DNA of 37,436 bases from an uncultured Dorea sp. (GCA_947645355.1 CANSCI010000016.1:1-37436), one strand, 5' to 3'; shown: positions 8,795-18,765, counted from the first letter of the stretch. Numbers and translations are program-made. The notes: generated by a model from the letters alone, not told the origin.

Positions 8795-10036
8795 ATGCTG
8801 ATACAGTACTCTGTGAGAAATTACAAATCAATAAGAGATGAGATTATTATTAATTTTACTGTAACGGAAAAAAAAGGTGATAATAATATGCCTATTTTCA
8901 ACAATGGATTAGATAGGCCTTTATATAGGTGTGTTGGTTTGGTAGGACCCAATGCGAGCGGTAAAAGTAATATAATCAGTTCATTATTTTTTGCATTACG
9001 TTTTATCAATTCTACGATAGAAAGAAAACAAAAATCAAAAATTAGTATAGAAATGTTTATGCTTGATAAGCATAGCAGAGAAGACGGAAGTTCATTTGAG
9101 TTTATCTTTTTAGAGGATAATATAAAATATGTTTATGGGTTTACAGTGAATACAGAGCGCGTATTGGAGGAATATCTTTTAGCATACTATTCCAAAAAAG
9201 CAACGACGCTTTTTGAAAGGGAGATAAATTCAGATCCAGAATATAATTTTAGGGGAAATGATGTTAAAATCCAAACAGAAATATCTAAGAAAACGAATCC
9301 AAACAGGTTATATTTGCCGGTTGCAGCAGAATGGGGATATGAAAAAGTGAAAATACCATACAAATGGTTTGAAAAAATGTATAGGCAATATAGTGATATG
9401 AATGTTAGTCAAGTAATTGCTGATGTATTAAGGGAGGATATACAAAAAAGAGTATTGTTAGAGGCTCTTTTAAAAGCGGATTTTAATATAAAAGATGTAT
9501 ATATAAAAAATAGGAAGCTGGAAAAACAGCATAGGGATGCGTTTGTACAATTCCTTGCAAATATGTTGGGGGAAGGAGAGGTGCCGGAAAATCTAGTGCC
9601 GGAGGATACCCCTGAGATTTGGCTTACTCACGTAAGCCGGAATGGGGAAACATTTGATATTGAGATTAACGATGATTCATCTGGTATTCGTGATATTATC
9701 GATAATATTGCTGAATTGCTTTTTATCAGTAAAGAAGGAGGATTATTTATTGAAGACGAGTTGGGGAGAAATTACCATACAAAGTTAACAGAGTATTTTT
9801 TGGGATTGTTTAATTGTAATAAAGTAAATAATGGAAGAGCGCAGTTGCTTTTTAGTACACATGATACAAAAATTCTTAATATATTGAACCCTGAACAAGT
9901 GTATCTGGTAGATAAGGATGAAGATGGCGGAACATATGTGAAGCTTTTAGATGATTATTTGATTCGAGAAAAAGACAATGTTGAATTGGGATATTTAAAA
10001 GGGAGATATGGAGCTGTTCCGAATATTAAGGAGTAG
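8795..10036 (+). CDS. AAA/ABC-type ATPase, AbiLi/RloA-like
   Basis: A 413-residue SMC/RecF-like ATPase of the COG1106 type. The N-terminal strand MLIQYSVRNYKSIRDE leads to Walker A GPNASGKSN (residues 51-59). The C-terminal half has a signature-like region (DDSSGIRDIIDNIAEL), a Walker B/acidic segment FIEDELGRNYH (318-328) and an H-loop STHDT (354-358). AGGAGGTAAC precedes the ATG. The stop lies seven bases before the start of the RloB-like gene, so the two are almost certainly translated together. ATPases of this kind paired with RloB proteins form the AbiL abortive-infection system and related rlo modules of restriction loci. Base composition is visibly more AT-rich than in flanking genes, which suggests transfer. 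The defence role is inferred from the pair, not shown. Confidence 0.85.
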   Translation: MLIQYSVRNYKSIRDEIIINFTVTEKKGDNNMPIFNNGLDRPLYRCVGLVGPNASGKSNIISSLFFALRFINSTIERKQKSKISIEMFMLDKHSREDGSSFEFIFLEDNIKYVYGFTVNTERVLEEYLLAYYSKKATTLFEREINSDPEYNFRGNDVKIQTEISKKTNPNRLYLPVAAEWGYEKVKIPYKWFEKMYRQYSDMNVSQVIADVLREDIQKRVLLEALLKADFNIKDVYIKNRKLEKQHRDAFVQFLANMLGEGEVPENLVPEDTPEIWLTHVSRNGETFDIEINDDSSGIRDIIDNIAELLFISKEGGLFIEDELGRNYHTKLTEYFLGLFNCNKVNNGRAQLLFSTHDTKILNILNPEQVYLVDKDEDGGTYVKLLDDYLIREKDNVELGYLKGRYGAVPNIKE

Positions 10037-10043
10037 ATGGGAT

Positions 10044-10688
10044 ATGCGTACAAGAGCAAGAGGAAAAGAACAAAAAGGCAAGAGCACGAAAGATAAACCA
10101 TGCAAAATATATATATTTACAGAGGGAGATACAGAAGAGATTTATTTAAAGCATTATGACAATAGAAAAAGGGGAATCGAAGTTATTCCAGTTGATTCAG
10201 GACATACCGATGCGGTAGGAATTGTAAGATATGCGAAAACATATATAGATGAGCATGATGTAGATGTAGAATTGGGAGATAAATGTTATTGTGTGTTTGA
10301 CTCAGATCCCAAGTCTAATCCTAATATTAGTGAGGCATTTGATTTGATAAGGGGATATAAACATAAAGGATTAGAATGTATATTTTCTAATCCGTCATTT
10401 GAAATATGGTTTATATTGCATTACAGACAAGCACCCTATGGAAAAAGTGCTGAAGATGTAAAAAGAATAGTGAGGGATTTAGTAAAAGAGGAGATGCCAG
10501 AATATAAAGAAACAACAGATATATTTGATATATTGAAAGCTAAACAGGATAGGGCTTTTAAGGAGGCAATACTGCTGCATAAAGCGCAATCGAAAGTACA
10601 TGAAAATGTTTTATCGCATAAATGTAATCCTTACACTAATATTTTTGAGTTTATCTCATATATAAGAGAAGTAAAGAAAGATATTTAG
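10044..10688 (+). CDS. RloB family protein, AbiLii-like
   Basis: A 214-residue protein with the RloB layout: a basic N-terminus, the strand and acidic motif IYIFTEGDTEEIYL (near 22-35), VFDSDPK (84-90) and the strongly diagnostic SNPSFEIWFILH (115-126). The Glu and Asp-x-Asp spacing resembles a TOPRIM-like metal site, so nuclease activity is plausible but is an inference. The start at 10044 (MRTRARG) is chosen because AAGGAG (10028-10033) precedes it. An earlier ATG at 10008 would overlap the ATPase gene and lacks a site. With the upstream ATPase this makes the two-gene AbiL/RloAB arrangement, in which the RloB member is thought to be the effector. AT-rich like its partner. Confidence 0.85.
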   Translation: MRTRARGKEQKGKSTKDKPCKIYIFTEGDTEEIYLKHYDNRKRGIEVIPVDSGHTDAVGIVRYAKTYIDEHDVDVELGDKCYCVFDSDPKSNPNISEAFDLIRGYKHKGLECIFSNPSFEIWFILHYRQAPYGKSAEDVKRIVRDLVKEEMPEYKETTDIFDILKAKQDRAFKEAILLHKAQSKVHENVLSHKCNPYTNIFEFISYIREVKKDI

Positions 10689-11939: not shown

Positions 11940-11969
11940 GGATAAAGGTGAGATGGAAAGGTGATGGAC

Positions 11970-12842
11970 ATGAAGGAAAGGCAAGGAAGATTCACCATAG
12001 GAGAACTGTCAAAGATGACCGGAATCAGTATAACAGCGCTGCGTTATTATGACAGGGAGAAGATCCTGGTTCCAGAGATCCGGAATGAAGATAATGGTTA
12101 TCGGTATTACTCTGTAAAGCAGCTGGAAAAGGCTCAGACGATCAGGGATCTCAAGGCAATCGACCTGTCTCTGGAGGAGATTAAGGATATTATCGAGAGA
12201 AAGAGCCAGAGGCATCTGGAGGAACTTCTATATGGCAAGATACAGGGACTTGAACAGGAGATCGATATTTTAGAGCGCAAGCTTTTATCTGCACAGCATG
12301 CCTATCGGAAAATGATAAGAGGCAAAACTTATATGGATGCGGACAGTTCGCCGGCTGTAGAGCAATACTACCCGGTGGATGTTGCACCCATCAAGGAAAT
12401 GTGGGTTCTCTATACCAGATACCCAAGCAATGTCAACGCCAAGAGCCTGTTTTCCGACAGATGTCTGGAACTTCAGAAAATCAGGAGCAAATATAATCTG
12501 TATCCTGTCGGTTCTTATATTGGGATCTTCCACGACGGTTACAAATCCCAGTTCCATTCGGAAAGAGGAGATCTGGAGCTCTGTCTTCCTGTGATCAAGC
12601 CGGATGGATTCTGGTGTAAGGAGATGAGAAGATTCGGGGGAATGCTGGCGGCAAGTACAGTAAGCATTGGATCCTATCAAAATATGGAAAAAGTCTACAG
12701 GTATCTGGAAAAGTGGATTGAAGAAAACGGGTATAGAATTATAGGTCCGCCCCACGAATACTATCTGATGGATATCAGTAATACCTTCAGTGAAGAGCAG
12801 TATATGACAAAGATACATTTTCCGGTAGAAAAGATAAAATGA
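11970..12842 (+). CDS. MerR family regulator with GyrI-like effector domain
   Basis: A 290-residue transcription factor. Residues 5-75 are a MerR winged helix (FTIGELSKMTGIS, then ALRYYDREKILVP and YRYYSVKQL). A dimerisation helix follows to about residue 115, and the C-terminal half (from about 120) fits a BmrR/GyrI-like small-molecule binding domain. The start at 11970 is best spaced from AAAGGTGAT; the GTG and ATG at 11961 and 11964 are too close to that site. It ends just before a terminator, and the next gene cluster has a promoter with MerR-type features (12954-12985). I infer that this protein is its activator. Effector unknown; GyrI-like domains generally bind organic, often hydrophobic or cationic, ligands. 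Confidence 0.9.
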   Translation: MKERQGRFTIGELSKMTGISITALRYYDREKILVPEIRNEDNGYRYYSVKQLEKAQTIRDLKAIDLSLEEIKDIIERKSQRHLEELLYGKIQGLEQEIDILERKLLSAQHAYRKMIRGKTYMDADSSPAVEQYYPVDVAPIKEMWVLYTRYPSNVNAKSLFSDRCLELQKIRSKYNLYPVGSYIGIFHDGYKSQFHSERGDLELCLPVIKPDGFWCKEMRRFGGMLAASTVSIGSYQNMEKVYRYLEKWIEENGYRIIGPPHEYYLMDISNTFSEEQYMTKIHFPVEKIK

Positions 12843-12857: not shown

Positions 12858-12915
12858 AAATAACATATTCCATGATGTGGATTGTGACATGTCATGGAAT
12901 ATGTTATTTTTTCTG
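12858..12915 (+). terminator. Terminator after the MerR gene
   Basis: A perfect 18-base inverted repeat (12858-12875 and 12892-12909) with a 16-base loop, continuing into a T-run. It separates the regulator transcript from the gcvPA-like operon. Confidence 0.9.
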
Positions 12916-12953: not shown

Positions 12954-12985
12954 TTGACTGTCTACTTAAGTTCAGGGTTTAAGAT
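12954..12985 (+). promoter_or_regulatory. MerR-type promoter of the gcvPA/gcvPB-like operon
   Basis: TTGACT (12954-12959) is separated by about 20 bases from TAAGAT (12980-12985). The spacer holds the perfect palindrome ACTTAAGT (12964-12971) close to its centre. Over-long spacers with a central dyad are the hallmark of MerR-activated promoters, and a MerR gene ends 110 bases upstream. A further dyad, TTGTC (12985-12989) with GACAA (12998-13002), lies at the expected transcription start. No ordinary 16-18 base pairing gives a good -10. Confidence 0.5.
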
Positions 12986-13095: not shown

Positions 13096-14502
13096 ATGAG
13101 CAATAAAACAATTTTCCCGTACATTCCAAACTCCGTTCCGGAGATACAGGAGGCAATGCTTAAGGAAGTAGGGGCGTCGGATGTAATGGATCTTTATGAA
13201 GAGATCCCGAAGGAGCTTCGTGTAAAGGGAATGCTGGATCTTCCGGAGCCTATCAGGGATGAGCTTGGGATCAAACGTCACATTGATAAGATCCTGAGCA
13301 AAAACAGAAACTGTAATGAGTATGACAATTTTTTGGGTGCAGGCTGTGCACAGCATTATGTGCCCGCAGTGTGCGATGAGATCGCAGGAAGGGGGGAACT
13401 TTTGACCTGCTATGGGGCGGAGACCTGGGCAGATCACGGGAAATACCAGATTTTCTTCGAGTACCAGAGTATGATGGCTGAGCTCCTTGAGATGGATTTC
13501 CTTACGGTGCCCTGTCACTGTGGAGGCCAGGCGGTATCGACAGCCTTTTGTATGTCGAACCGCATTACCGGGCGTAAGAAGATCCTTGTGCCCAAGACCA
13601 TGACACCCCAGAATCTTATGATCGCAAAGAACTATGTAAAATCAGCCATCGAGGAGCAGGCGCTTATCATCGAGGCAGTGGAGTACGATCCTGAGACCGG
13701 GGAAATGGATCTGGCAGATCTGAGGGCGAAGCTTGATGATAAGACAGCAGCAGTCCTGATTGAAAACCCTAATTATCTGGGGGTGATCGAGAGCCAGGGG
13801 GAAGAGATCGGGAGACTGGCCAGAGAAGCAGGGGCAGAGTTCATCGTGTATGCAGATCCGATCACTTTGGGGGTGATGGAAGCGCCGGGAAACTACGGAG
13901 CGACCATCTGCGTCGGAGATCTTCACGGCCTTGGCCTTCACCTTCAGTGCGGCGGCGCCCAGGCAGGGTATATCGCCTGCAGGGATGATATGAAATATAT
14001 GATGGAATTCAAAGAGCTGGTAGACGGAGTAGTGGAGACGACTGTTCCGGGAGAGATCGGATATACCGTTGTTCTTATGGAGCGTACTCATTATGCGATG
14101 CGTGAGAAGGGCAGGGAGTTCACTGGAACACAAAATAACCTGTGGACAGCGCCGATAGCTGTGTATCTTTCCCTGATGGGGCCGAAAGGAATGCAGGAGA
14201 TCGGTGACACGATCATGACCAAGAGCCAGTACGCAGCAATGAGGTTCTCACAGATCCCTGGTGTGAAGGTAAGATTTACAGGGACATTTTTTAAAGAGTT
14301 TGTACTTGATTATAACGATACCGGAAAAACAGAGGCAGAGATCAGACAGGCAATGCTTGAAGAAAAGATATTCTCAGGAGCTGCTCTTAAGGAGGATTAC
14401 CCGGAACTTTCAGAATGTGCACTTGTGTGTGTGACAGAGATGACCACGATGGAGGCAGTCGACCATATGGCAGAGGCGCTTCAAAAGGCAGTGCAGGGAT
14501 AA
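13096..14502 (+). CDS. GcvPA-like protein (divergent glycine decarboxylase subunit 1 homologue)
   Basis: A 468-residue protein of the fold-type I PLP family that aligns with glycine dehydrogenase subunit 1. FPYIPN at the start, EYDNFLGAGCAQHYVPAV (near 75-92) and FFEYQSMMAELLEMD (120-134) are recognisable. However, stretches that are close to invariant in true GcvPA are changed. The YTPYQPE-type motif is replaced by CYGAETWADHGKYQ (105-118). The YDGGTALAEA motif is replaced by PCHCGGQAVSTA (139-150), which adds Cys residues at what should be the cofactor/substrate pocket. CAGGAGGAAG precedes the ATG, and the gcvPB-like gene starts ten bases after the stop. No gcvT or gcvH gene is near. It is probably one half of an alpha2-beta2 PLP enzyme with a non-glycine substrate. 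The fold assignment is safe; the reaction is not. Confidence 0.85.
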   Translation: MSNKTIFPYIPNSVPEIQEAMLKEVGASDVMDLYEEIPKELRVKGMLDLPEPIRDELGIKRHIDKILSKNRNCNEYDNFLGAGCAQHYVPAVCDEIAGRGELLTCYGAETWADHGKYQIFFEYQSMMAELLEMDFLTVPCHCGGQAVSTAFCMSNRITGRKKILVPKTMTPQNLMIAKNYVKSAIEEQALIIEAVEYDPETGEMDLADLRAKLDDKTAAVLIENPNYLGVIESQGEEIGRLAREAGAEFIVYADPITLGVMEAPGNYGATICVGDLHGLGLHLQCGGAQAGYIACRDDMKYMMEFKELVDGVVETTVPGEIGYTVVLMERTHYAMREKGREFTGTQNNLWTAPIAVYLSLMGPKGMQEIGDTIMTKSQYAAMRFSQIPGVKVRFTGTFFKEFVLDYNDTGKTEAEIRQAMLEEKIFSGAALKEDYPELSECALVCVTEMTTMEAVDHMAEALQKAVQG

Positions 14503-14512
14503 GGAGGATGTT

Positions 14513-16090
14513 ATGCGTAGAGATTATAAAACATATCTGAGACGTTTCCATGAAGCAAAGTGGGACGAGGAAATTATATTTGATTTGAGTGTTCCGGGGC
14601 AGCGGGGGATTATAGTACCGGCGGCGGAAGCTCAGATGGTGGAGGCAGTCGGAAAGGGCAGCAGCAAGATCCCTCAGGGCATGAAGAGAAAGAAACTGCC
14701 GAATCTTCCGGAGGTGCACCAGATGAGAGTAAACCGTCATTTCATGCGTCTTACACAGGAGGTTATGGGCGCGGATGTTACTCCGGATCTCAGCCAGGGT
14801 ACTTGTACGATGAAGTACAGCCCGAAGGTACAGGAGCATACCGCGGCAAGAAATGAAAACCTTATTGACGTACATCCGCTCCAGGACGTCTCCACCATTC
14901 AGGGAATTCTTGAGATCTATAAAAAGACAGAGGAGATGGTATGTGAGATCTCTGGGATGGATGCATTCAACTTCCACGCAGGCGGAGGCGCTGCGGCCTG
15001 CTATGAGGGGGCCTGTGTCGTGCGGGCTTATCATAAGTCCAGAGGCGATGATAAGAGAGACGAGATCATTACGACGATCTTCTCCCACCCCTGTGATGCG
15101 GGAGCTCCTTCCACGGCTGGATATAAGGTGGTTACACTGATGCCCAATGAAGACGGGATTCCAGATCTGGAGGCTATGAAGGCGGCATTGTCTGAGAGGA
15201 CAGCTGCAATATTTATTACAAATCCGGAAGATACAGGCATCTTTAACCCAAGGATCAAGGAATATGTGGATGCAGCCCATGAAGCGGGGGCGCTTTGCTA
15301 CTACGACCAGGCAAATGTAAACGGAATCATGGGAATTACAAGAGCCCGGGAGGTCGGCTTTGACATCATTCATTACAACCTGCACAAGACATTCTCATCC
15401 CCCCACGGAGGCATGGGACCAGGCTGCGGAGCACTGGGAGTAAGAGAATTCCTAAAGCCATTCCTGCCGGTTCCGCGAGTGGAAAAGGATGGGGAACATT
15501 ATTACCTGGATTATGATTGTCCGGAGAGTATCGGAAAGATTCGTACATTTATGGGAAATGCCCATGTAGTTCTGAGAACCTATATGTGGATTAAGCAGAT
15601 GGGGGCGGAAGGGATCCGTGAGGCAGCAGTCTGTTCCGTATTAAATAACCAGTACCTGATGAAGCAGGTCAGCAAGATCAAGGGCGTAGAGGTATACTAT
15701 GCACTGGGCAAACGAAGGATCGAGCAGTGCAGGTATAGCTGGAATAAGCTGAAAGAAGATACCGGCTTCGGGACAGTGGATGTGACGAAACGGCTTATTG
15801 ATTTTGGTATGCAGCATTACTGGCAGTCTCACCATCCCCATATCGTACCGGAACCATTTACACTGGAGCCGACGGAGTCCTACAGTAAGGACGACCTGGA
15901 TGAATATGCTGCAATCCTGACAGAGATATCCAGAGAGTGCTATGAGGAGCCGGAGGTTATCCGTTCGGCGCCGCACAATGCGCCGATCCACGCGATCCTT
16001 ACCGACGAAGTCGATGATTTTGACAAGATTGCGGTGACATGGCGGCAGTGGCAGAAGCGGATTCAGGCAGGAACCATGAAGGATGCATAG
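14513..16090 (+). CDS. GcvPB-like protein (divergent glycine decarboxylase subunit 2 homologue)
   Basis: A 525-residue PLP enzyme subunit, about 40 residues longer than usual GcvPB. The overall path is conserved: GTCTMKYSPK (96-105), a C-terminal EPTESYSKDDLDEY, and the PLP-lysine motif NLHKTFSSPHGG with Lys292. Two core motifs differ from glycine decarboxylase: QPAAGAHGE becomes HAGGGAAACYE (155-165), and the AHGTNPASA segment becomes SHPCDAGAPSTA (191-202). These residues line the active site in P-protein structures, so a changed substrate is likely while PLP chemistry is kept. AAGGAGGATGTT precedes the ATG. It follows the gcvPA-like gene by ten bases, and the next protein is most likely translated from a GTG 22 bases after its stop. 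Confidence 0.87.
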   Translation: MRRDYKTYLRRFHEAKWDEEIIFDLSVPGQRGIIVPAAEAQMVEAVGKGSSKIPQGMKRKKLPNLPEVHQMRVNRHFMRLTQEVMGADVTPDLSQGTCTMKYSPKVQEHTAARNENLIDVHPLQDVSTIQGILEIYKKTEEMVCEISGMDAFNFHAGGGAAACYEGACVVRAYHKSRGDDKRDEIITTIFSHPCDAGAPSTAGYKVVTLMPNEDGIPDLEAMKAALSERTAAIFITNPEDTGIFNPRIKEYVDAAHEAGALCYYDQANVNGIMGITRAREVGFDIIHYNLHKTFSSPHGGMGPGCGALGVREFLKPFLPVPRVEKDGEHYYLDYDCPESIGKIRTFMGNAHVVLRTYMWIKQMGAEGIREAAVCSVLNNQYLMKQVSKIKGVEVYYALGKRRIEQCRYSWNKLKEDTGFGTVDVTKRLIDFGMQHYWQSHHPHIVPEPFTLEPTESYSKDDLDEYAAILTEISRECYEEPEVIRSAPHNAPIHAILTDEVDDFDKIAVTWRQWQKRIQAGTMKDA

Positions 16091-16112
16091 AAGGCCGAAA
16101 GAGGTGAGGGAC

Positions 16113-17225
16113 GTGAAGAAAATCGGTTTTCTGGTAAATCCGGTGGCCGGAGTCGGAGGTCGGGTAGGCTTAAAGGGAAGTGACGGAGCCAGGATACAGG
16201 AGATGGCCAAAAAGCTGGGTGCGGTTCCGGAGGCGTCTCTTCGTGCCCTTGCCGCCCTCCAGAAAGCTTCCGGACTGACGGATCAGATCGTGTTTCTGAC
16301 CGCTCCCGGTGTCATGGGGGAGGATGTGGTAAAGCAGACGGCATTTCCCTATGAAGTGGTGGGAACGCTGCCGGATGGGGCTACAACCGCAGAGGATACG
16401 ATCCGCATTGCAAGAGAAATCCTGGAGTCCCAGGCGGATCTTCTGATGTTTGCCGGCGGAGACGGTACTGCCAGAAATGTGTGTGAGGCGGTGGGCATGG
16501 AGCTTCCTGTACTTGGCATTCCGGCAGGAGTAAAGATTCACTCTGCTGTATACGCGTACAATACGAAAAATGCCGGGGAGGCTCTGGAATACTTCTGCAA
16601 TGAAAGCAGAAATCGTTATGAAGAGGCGGAAGTGATGGACATCGATGAGGAGGCCTTCCGGGGCGGGACAGTCCGGGCAAAGCTCTATGGATATATGAGG
16701 ATCCCGGTTCTGCACCGCTGTATGCAAAGTGTAAAAAGCGGGGGATATTCTGAGAAGGAGCATGTTGCGGGGATCGCGGAAAGTGTAGTTTCCCAGATGA
16801 CGCCCGGGGCATACTATGTCGTGGGGCCGGGCACTACGACCATACCCATCATGGACAGGCTAGGGCTTCCCCATACACTTCTGGGAATGGATATTGTGAA
16901 GGACGGAAAACTAATAAAAGCAGATGCGGCAGAGAAAGACATATATGACCTTACGAAGAAAGGAGAGGTCTATGTGATCCTGACTGTGATCGGGGGGCAG
17001 GGACATTTGTTCGGCAGAGGGAACCAGCAGATCAGCCCGAGGATCCTGCGGGCAATCGGACGGAAACACTGTATGATCGTGGCCACAAAGAGCAAGCTTC
17101 TTAGTATTGCGGCCGGAAGGCTTACGGTGGATACCGGGGACATTGAGCTTGATATGGAACTGGCCGGATATGTGAGGATCATCACAGGCTACCAGGATAG
17201 CGTTATGTTTAAAATTGAGTCTTAA
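16113..17225 (+). CDS. COG3199-type ATP-NAD kinase-like protein (AcoX-like)
   Basis: A 370-residue protein related to NAD kinase and to AcoX. It begins MKKIGFLVNPVAGVGGRVGL, typical of the COG3199 subgroup. The nucleotide-binding motif FAGGDGTARNV is at 113-123, followed by VLGIPAGVKIHSAVYA. The C-terminal half is the extra domain that distinguishes this subgroup from ordinary NadK. Predicted role: phosphorylation of NAD or of a related nucleotide or small molecule. The start is taken as GTG at 16113, with GAGGTG six bases upstream; the ATG at 16083 overlaps the previous gene and adds an atypical basic extension. Close linkage to the GcvP-like pair suggests that it serves the same pathway, as AcoX does with acetoin genes, but its real substrate is unknown. 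Confidence 0.8.
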   Translation: MKKIGFLVNPVAGVGGRVGLKGSDGARIQEMAKKLGAVPEASLRALAALQKASGLTDQIVFLTAPGVMGEDVVKQTAFPYEVVGTLPDGATTAEDTIRIAREILESQADLLMFAGGDGTARNVCEAVGMELPVLGIPAGVKIHSAVYAYNTKNAGEALEYFCNESRNRYEEAEVMDIDEEAFRGGTVRAKLYGYMRIPVLHRCMQSVKSGGYSEKEHVAGIAESVVSQMTPGAYYVVGPGTTTIPIMDRLGLPHTLLGMDIVKDGKLIKADAAEKDIYDLTKKGEVYVILTVIGGQGHLFGRGNQQISPRILRAIGRKHCMIVATKSKLLSIAAGRLTVDTGDIELDMELAGYVRIITGYQDSVMFKIES

Positions 17226-17241
17226 AGGAAGGAGAACAATT

Positions 17242-18653
17242 ATGGAAAACCAAGAAAGATATGACCGGAAACTTCCAATGACCGTAAAGATGGGATTTGG
17301 TATTGCAAACCTTGGAGATACGATTATCACGGAATTTGTAGGGCATTCCTGATATTTTTCCTGACAAATATTGCGGGAATCAGGCCGGCGCTTGCAGGAA
17401 CCATTGTTTTCATCGGTGTTATGTGGGATGCCGTCAGTGACCCTGCAATCGGAACCATGTCTGACCGATGTAAACTGAAGGCAGGGCGAAGAAGGCCGTT
17501 TCTGTTGATATCCGTTATTCCGATTATCGTTTTTACAATGCTTTTGTTTACTGCGGTGAATGTGTCGGCGGGCATGAAATTCGTATATTTTACAGTTATG
17601 ACTATTTTCTATTGGACATCCTATACACTGTTTAATATTCCGTATCTGTCGCTTGGCTCGGAGTTAACGACTAATAATGACGAGAAGACAAGGGCGTCCT
17701 CCATCAGGCAGGTGTTCGGTACCTTCGGGCTTTTATTTGCAAATGCACTTCCCCTGCTGTTGGTGACGGCATTTAAAAATATGGGTGTAAGCGAAGTGCG
17801 GGCGTGGATGCTGGCGGCGCTGACACTGGGATTTATCGCAGGTCTCGCGATCCTGATCACATGGCGGACAACCAGAGGATGGGAGATCAAGTACCGGCCC
17901 TCGGATAAGAGTGAGCCGCTGCTTAAGAGCCTTGGAAAGGTGCTTACCTATAAACCGTATATTTTAATCATTGCCGCATCCTTCCTGTTCTACTTTGCAT
18001 TTAATACCTGTAATGCGACAGTTATTTACAATGCGCTGGTTGTGGTAGGCGCAACAGAGGCCGATACGGCCATTGTGTATACTTCGGGTACGATCGTGGG
18101 AGTCATCTTATCTATGTTGATCGGAAAACTTGCAGTAAAATATGATAAGAAGTACGTGTTTATTATATTTATGGCAATCGCAGGTATTGCGCTGAGTGCA
18201 TTTAAACTGATCGGGTTCCACAGCATTACCATGCAGGCCGTACAGTTCTGTATGGCGCACTTCGGGATCATCAGCTTCCTGGTACTGAGCTACAATCTTT
18301 TGTATGATACCTGCGAGGTATATGAGTTCCGGTGCGGGGAGATGCTGACGGGAGTTATGATCTCATACTTCTCTTTCTTTATTAAATTAGGTAAGGCAAC
18401 GGCGCTCCAGGTAGTCGGGCTTATCCTGGAGGCCAGGGGATATCAGGCAGAATTGGCAGTGCAGCCGGACAGTGCGAAGGCGGCAGTTACAGACATGTCC
18501 TCATGGATCCCCGGAGTATTGATGCTTCTCTGTGCACTGGTCATCTGGAGATATCCGATTACAAGGGAGAAATTCCGGGCAATGCAGGAGGCGAAGAAGC
18601 TGAAACTGGCAGGGCAGGACTATTCCACGGAGGGATTTGAAGATATCTTATAA
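17242..18653 (+). pseudogene. GPH-type (MFS) sugar:cation symporter, single-base frameshift
   Basis: The gene begins at 17242 (AAGGAAGGAGAACAATT before ATG) and reads MENQERYDRKLPMTVKMGF to EFVG, then hits TGA at 17350-17352. The family sequence continues in the next frame as AFLIFFLTNIAGIRPALAG, then WDAVSDPAIGTMSDRCK, to the end at 18653. One missing base in the GGG at 17341-17343 (expected GGGG) explains this exactly: with it restored the protein would be 470 residues, the usual length for glycoside-pentoside-hexuronide symporters. Twelve hydrophobic segments are visible overall. It may be a real inactivation, a G-tract slippage site, or an assembly error. It is the last gene of the gcvPA-like operon and would import the pathway's substrate. 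An internal ATG at 17421 would yield a truncated carrier lacking the first helices. Confidence 0.85.
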
Positions 18654-18715: not shown

Positions 18716-18717
18716 GC

Positions 18718-18765
18718 TCCTTCCTGGCAGGAATCTATACTTCTTGTCAGGAAGGAGTGTTTTTT
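18718..18765 (+). terminator. Terminator of the gcvPA-like operon
   Basis: An imperfect stem (CTCTTCCTGGCA, from 18718, with TGTCAGGAAGGAG, ending near 18757; one bulge) followed by TGTTTTTT (18758-18765). Confidence 0.8.

Follow-up and report, generated by a model that had tools for sequence, protein, structure and literature searches.

A contig of 37,436 nucleotides from an uncultured Dorea sp. (GCA_947645355.1, CANSCI010000016.1:1-37436), referred to here in its full length as the window, encodes two adjacent proteins, subA and subB, that resemble the GcvPA and GcvPB subunits of the glycine cleavage P-protein and are followed by a gene for a COG3199 kinase-like protein (together, the trio). 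An earlier note, made from the sequence alone, had proposed a pyridoxal phosphate (PLP) enzyme acting on an amino compound other than glycine, and we retain this as the best reading on the basis of a separate clade, missing T- and H-protein partners and the recurrence of COG3199. With a probability of roughly 60%, we propose that subA-subB is a PLP heterodimer derived from P-protein that would work without H-protein-coupled glycine cleavage, in partnership with the COG3199 protein, on another small amino compound. The three genes are positioned as follows.

13096..14502, + strand: subA, GcvPA-like subunit of 468 amino acids (NF001696, 426 bits; cut-off 364)
14513..16090, + strand: subB, GcvPB-like catalytic subunit of 525 amino acids with the PLP lysine at Lys292 (NF003346, 545 bits; cut-off 441)
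16083..17225, + strand: COG3199 kinase-like protein of the NAD kinase / diacylglycerol kinase superfamily (Pfam NAD_kinase, E 3e-17)

A separate clade of P-protein-like subunits

The signs of the GcvP fold and the PLP lysine that the earlier note had recognized in these two reading frames were borne out by structure searches. The nearest PDB entries were the two chains of the Thermus thermophilus P-protein, 1wyt_A for subA (E 1e-55) and 1wyt_B for subB (E 3e-92), and Lys292 in the NLHKTF motif is invariant. An AlphaFold model of subB, built as a monomer without its partner (pLDDT 75), gave GcvPB 9a73_B and 1wyt_B as the top fold matches, and sphingosine-1-phosphate (S1P) lyase was among the next matches after GcvP, mixed with cysteine desulfurases. 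Since the NF001696 and NF003346 cut-offs are exceeded, an automatic pipeline would label the pair glycine dehydrogenase.

In 200 genomes from the same family as the window, a subB search returned two groups, one at about 50% identity with six further copies in four other genomes, and one at about 39% identity formed by 25 genomes with canonical GcvPB. In a first tree, 89 clade sequences were split from 30 canonical sequences by one branch with SH-aLRT 100. A second tree, with canonical sequences sampled only from Bacillota, the phylum of Desulfospira and T. thermophilus and including two fused GcvP of actinobacteria, split 42 clade sequences from 38 canonical ones by one branch with UFBoot/SH-aLRT of 100/100, so that the subA/subB-type genes fall outside canonical P-proteins in a separate clade, which agrees with the earlier note's reading. 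Both results are splits across one branch, the position of the root being no part of the test. The NF003346 scores were likewise bimodal within two score sets, at about 500-583 bits for the clade and at least 604 bits for canonical split GcvPB; exceptions were pieces cut short by contig ends and, at 467-474 bits, the two fused GcvP of actinobacteria.

A scan of named genomes produced at least 594 pattern matches, at least 588 of which were relatives, canonical ones possibly included. Among the matches listed, 80 loci were kept, all 54-81% identical to the window protein; they belong to bacteria (Clostridia, Syntrophomonadaceae, Desulfobacterales, Vagococcus, Chloroflexota, Acidobacteria, Aminicenantes and Actinomycetota) and to archaea (Nitrososphaerota, Bathyarchaeota, Brockarchaeota and Lokiarchaeota). 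The clade and canonical kinds co-occur in many genomes. Judged by sequence comparison, the subA/subB clade is a large, multi-phylum family that is annotated everywhere as GcvPA/GcvPB. What the earlier note had put forward as an undescribed pathway is thus no local curiosity, and our literature search, which left subscription journals mostly outside its range, found no description of the clade.

Apparent subA-subB fusions in actinobacteria were rejected, as the 990-residue reading frames are open-frame extensions without similarity to subA. Two loci from the phylum of Desulfospira (L172 and L173) place a clade trio with two SDR genes beside a divergently oriented canonical gcvPA-gcvPB-lipA cluster, and a HemL-like class-III aminotransferase gene is found with the clade trio in L173 and L174.

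A more distant branch, at 43-46% identity, is carried on plasmids of Rhodococcus, Sphingomonas, Gemmobacter, Paracoccus, Antarctobacter and Roseicitreum, with COG3199, gcvPA and gcvPB consecutive. Haloarchaeal plasmids also carry the family, and in Natronosalvus no COG3199 gene is annotated near the pair. The branch keeps K292, R402, E404, R407, S439 and H440, while Met replaces Asn289. At the plasmid loci L175-L181, which are annotated gcvPA/gcvPB and mostly include COG3199, NLHKTF reads MLHKTF, with loss of the Asn that contacts the PLP phosphate, and SHHP reads SHEP. In contrast, the canonical plasmid locus of Priestia is ordered gcvT-gcvH-gcvPA-gcvPB.

Active-site residues

Residues were compared between 82-91 clade sequences and 32 canonical sequences, and the PLP contacts of mouse GLDC (D732, N756, H758, S562, T388 and K759; PMC7850488) were mapped to subA and subB by our own alignment. 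The PLP site is kept, with D265, N289, H291, K292 and a Ser or Thr at position 97 in subB and T345 in subA. The canonical pocket motifs (YTPYQPE.SQ, YDGG.A.AE, AAGAHGE, AHGTNP, HEF and YFP) are replaced, and most of the replacements are invariant in the clade.

The four motif replacements named in the earlier note are all real, two of them clade-wide and two mainly specific to the window's subgroup. Throughout the clade, the YTPYQPE region of subA carries a one-residue deletion, with Asp113 in 82/82 and His114 in 76/82 sequences, and the AHG of subB is switched to SHP in 91/91 sequences. PCHCGG in subA mostly marks the subgroup to which the window belongs; where YDGG has its Asp, 76/82 clade sequences likewise have Asp and 5/82 have Cys, and the window subA is without the clade Asp at 142. 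HAGGG in subB is a minority form, the clade having mostly QPGGG. Stronger switches in subB had been overlooked, namely NPNT to NPED (239-240), CMHEFV to RxEQxR (402-407) and MYFP to SHHP (439-442). The near-invariant, clade-specific residues of subB are S191-H192-P193, E239, D240, Q266, R402, E404, Q405, R407, S439 and H440, with H441 also clade-specific in the window protein; those of subA are D113, H114, E341 and G344, alongside the invariant T345. Chance or decay was rejected as the origin of the motif changes because they are invariant across phyla, and the residue pattern indicates that the pocket is rebuilt rather than eroded.

Absence of glycine-cleavage partners

No T- or H-protein is encoded in the window, as the earlier note had observed, and the same was found on a wider scale. 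The window's own genome (G000, 88% complete, with clade copies only) gave no GCV_H and no GCV_T, L-protein not being searched, and G057, a 99% complete genome that likewise has clade copies only, gave no GCV_T and no GCV_H over the cut-off (one weak hit, 20.9 bits). In G208 no GCV_T was found, and the only GCV_H hit was weak and inside a 1160-residue frame. In many other carriers, H- and T-protein genes lie elsewhere in the genome. Across the 200 family genomes, a strong GCV_H hit lay within about 3 kb of 25/25 canonical GcvPB genes and of 0/7 clade copies (Fisher ~3e-7, our own arithmetic). A glycine riboswitch was present at 0/15 clade loci and at 3/5 of the canonical loci tested. Human R373 is an Arg modelled to dock the H-protein (PMC7259800); at this docking site (Thermus-311 of subA, by our own alignment), Arg is found in 31/32 canonical sequences, whereas the clade is variable and the window has Met335.

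These results bear on the reading of subA-subB as an ordinary or divergent glycine decarboxylase that relies on an H-protein from another locus or supplied in trans. Such an enzyme would share the fold, the PLP lysine and scores above the NCBIfam GcvPA/GcvPB cut-offs, and canonical GcvH is also present in many carriers. However, no GcvH or GcvT was found in G000 or G057, the H-docking Arg is not retained here, clade loci lack the riboswitch, and the sequences form a separate clade with the canonical pocket residues replaced. On account of tree, partner genes and pocket, the ordinary P-protein was rejected and is considered improbable.

The COG3199 partner

The earlier note had suggested testing whether both COG3199 and a GPH transporter gene recur with the pair. 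This held for COG3199, which lies within 5 kb at 47/55 well-flanked clade loci and 0/11 canonical loci, but the GPH gene accompanies close relatives only, from Hespellia (L044) and Clostridium (L046). Two genomes, G202 (L056) and G205 (L084), encode three paralogous trios each, every trio with its own COG3199, and both also have a shorter NAD kinase gene. Pairwise distances of subB and COG3199 were correlated (r 0.67, 0/2000 permutations), as were those of subA and subB (r 0.87). For several paralogues, nearest neighbors differ between subB and COG3199; the link between the two is strong, not lock-step.

The GGDGT nucleotide-binding motif was found in 87/87 COG3199 homologues. In a structural model (pLDDT 88), the N-terminal domain matched NAD kinase, the diacylglycerol kinase DgkB and sphingosine kinase with Z of about 10, and a sequence-profile search of the PDB gave no relative. 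No fold relative was found for the C-terminal part, a result without weight either way. The literature search returned no paper with the term COG3199, and an AcoX query gave acyl-CoA oxidase papers only.

An unlikely alternative is that COG3199 serves as a dedicated kinase of NAD(H), from which the SDR or MDR enzymes would draw their NADP(H), and does not phosphorylate the substrate, with the PLP pair acting as a decarboxylase or lyase on a non-glycine amino acid. The NAD_kinase Pfam domain and the NAD kinase fold matches would suit this role, the plasmid copies carry the annotation NAD(+)/NADH kinase, and SDR genes are the next commonest neighbors. However, COG3199 accompanies the PLP pair even without an adjacent SDR gene, every one of the paralogous trios in G202 and G205 has a COG3199 of its own, and the genomes tested already have another NAD kinase gene. 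That COG3199 is the sole NAD kinase was rejected, as a second, shorter NAD kinase gene was present in 5/5 genomes tested.

Neighboring genes and regulation

The remaining features around the trio in the window are listed below.

11961..12842, + strand: MerR-family regulator with a GyrI-like ligand domain (Pfam MerR_1, E 7e-18; GyrI-like, E 9e-8)
12860..12907, + strand: terminator-like hairpin between the MerR gene and the trio (20-pair stem and T run; pattern match only)
12954..12985, + strand: candidate MerR-type promoter, TTGACT-N20-TAAGAT (long-spacer pattern)
17242..18653, + strand: GPH-family symporter with an apparent one-base frameshift near 17342 (MFS_2, E 2e-64)
18716..18758, + strand: terminator-like hairpin ending the subA-subB-COG3199-GPH unit (18-pair stem and T run; pattern match only)

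The four genes subA, subB, COG3199 and GPH are thus bracketed by terminator-like hairpins recognized by pattern match. Genes for PfkB, a fucose-isomerase-like protein and xylulokinase were rejected as parts of the system, as they form a separate unit past the hairpin at 18716-18758. The GPH gene apparently starts at 17242 and its frame breaks at about 17342, the reading frame listed from 17421 being the in-frame remainder; the break may be a sequencing error or mark a pseudogene. Neither GPH nor PfkB was found at the first related loci examined. Within the window's subgroup, L044 and L046 have GPH and L042, L043 and L045 have APC instead, which suggests that the transporter is exchangeable, and other members of the clade have APC permeases or ABC transporters. 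GPH was rejected as a core component and kept for close relatives only.

The frameshifted GPH gene and the missing clade Asp at 142 of the window subA could be signs of a decaying paralogue without activity. Both subunits are nevertheless full length and keep the clade-invariant residues, full-length relatives 81% identical occur in other genomes, and the operons are conserved across phyla and plasmids, making this explanation very improbable.

SDR genes, at 27/55 well-flanked clade loci, are joined by genes for MDR threonine-dehydrogenase-like proteins, APC permeases, ArgE/DapE deacylases and CN-hydrolases. Individual loci have succinate CoA-transferase and methylmalonyl-CoA mutase (L097 and L118), D-serine ammonia-lyase (L133), hydantoinase and carbamoylase (L130) or a serine hydroxymethyltransferase-like (SHMT-like) gene nearby (L066), and GH42/GH2 beta-galactosidases occur at loci in actinobacteria and Chloroflexota. 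D-serine or D-threonine, hydantoin-derived amino acids, galactosides of amino compounds and hydroxyproline-like compounds were considered as substrates on the basis of these neighbors and rejected, none being consistent across loci. A UPF0340 (YwlG-like, recognized by eye) gene lies close to the trio in L049, L054, L055 and L133. A DUF819-like membrane protein, possibly a substrate transporter, is encoded beside the trio in two Bacillota (L035:6772-8013 and L097:7244-8458), with Pfam checked for L035 only.

Some of these neighbors are related to glycine, namely the SHMT-like gene, the UPF0340/YwlG-like genes and the canonical gcvPA-gcvPB-lipA clusters of L172 and L173. Together with the intact PLP site, they would be compatible with an H-protein-independent decarboxylase of glycine, or of the sarcosine or alanine type, in which the acceptor of the aminoalkyl carbanion is a small thiol, an aldehyde or a proton; COG3199 would then either provide NADP(H) or phosphorylate the product. 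No acceptor enzyme is common to the loci, no riboswitch was found, and the varied feeder genes (hydantoinase, deacylases and D-serine ammonia-lyase) argue against a single glycine-like substrate; we hold this explanation to be quite unlikely.

A MerR-family gene also adjoins the trio in five other loci (L044, L046, L056, L057 and L061). A TTGAC-N19/20-TATAAT-like promoter, with the spacing used by MerR activators, was found in 6/6 MerR-adjoining loci and 0/2 loci without MerR, by criteria that were set after viewing the window and with 12-34% of shuffles per MerR locus containing such a site. The neighboring genes suggest a catabolic, inducible setting.

Elsewhere in the window, at 8795-10688, two overlapping genes form an Abi-L/RloAB-type defence pair adjoining a DUF2130 gene; one encodes an AAA_21 ATPase (AbiLi-like, PADLOC E 3e-69) and the other is RloB-like (AbiLii-like, Pfam RloB E 6e-30).

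Proposed function

In the heterodimer that we propose, Lys292 of subB would hold PLP and subA would complete the pocket, whose substrate and lipoyl side would have been rebuilt, and COG3199 would be the dedicated kinase-type partner. A MerR-type activator would sense the small amino compound and a transporter would import it. As a tentative scheme, COG3199 may phosphorylate an amino acid or amino alcohol on its hydroxyl, the new Arg402/Arg407/His440 cluster may bind the phosphate anion, and the PLP enzyme may then decarboxylate or cleave the phosphorylated compound, after which dehydrogenases of the SDR or MDR type and enzymes of CoA activation, encoded at many loci, may route the products to central metabolism. 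The coupling of kinase and PLP lyase is suggested by genetic linkage and by the new invariant basic residues, and the substrate probably differs between paralogues. More broadly, though with less than even confidence, the family could represent a widespread and so far undescribed P-protein-derived PLP class that acts without H-protein and with COG3199 on phosphorylated hydroxy-amino substrates, as a plasmid-mobile, modular catabolic cassette of bacteria and archaea.

Several observations count against the assignment of subA-subB to a COG3199-partnered enzyme without H-protein. The genome of the window is only 88% complete, both subunits exceed NCBIfam equivalog cut-offs for GcvPA/GcvPB, and COG3199 is absent near 8/55 well-flanked clade loci. 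Many carriers also encode canonical GcvP and H-protein, and in these the H-protein could be used in trans. In addition, that the kinase acts first and that Arg402/407 bind the anion is our inference.

Automatic annotation of the clade as glycine dehydrogenase credits genomes with the cleavage of glycine, or with a reductive glycine route, that may be absent. The substrate can now be tested together with the role of COG3199, for which listings have long given no more than a predicted NAD kinase, and the clade can serve as a natural experiment on the changes in a P-protein that has given up its lipoyl partner.

Comparison with known systems

subA and subB share heterodimer gene order and fold with the GcvPA/GcvPB P-protein (T. 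thermophilus 1wyt/1wyu and the GCSPA-GCSPB model 9a73), and subB has the PLP lysine, Asp265, Asn289 and His291 in common with it. They differ in being only about 34% identical and in forming a separate clade, in which the part of the pocket for glycine and lipoyl has other invariant residues and the H/T partner genes are missing, with COG3199 as partner instead. The pair is a new variant within a known fold family, and its reaction is possibly new.

The window's COG3199 protein has GGDGT and the NAD_kinase and NAD_kinase_C Pfam domains in common with COG3199 members of the 'ATP-NAD kinase family' (AcoX-like). It differs from the shorter NAD kinase of the genomes tested, being an additional, second kinase gene.

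Couples of a kinase with a PLP enzyme include PduX/CobD (threonine kinase and threonine-phosphate decarboxylase), sphingosine kinase/S1P lyase and hydroxylysine kinase/phospholyase. In each, a hydroxyl kinase works with a fold-type-I PLP enzyme, as is proposed for COG3199 and subA-subB, and sphingosine kinase and COG3199 belong to one kinase fold family. subA-subB differs from these couples in being a P-protein-type heterodimer, and the likeness is one of analogy and not of membership.

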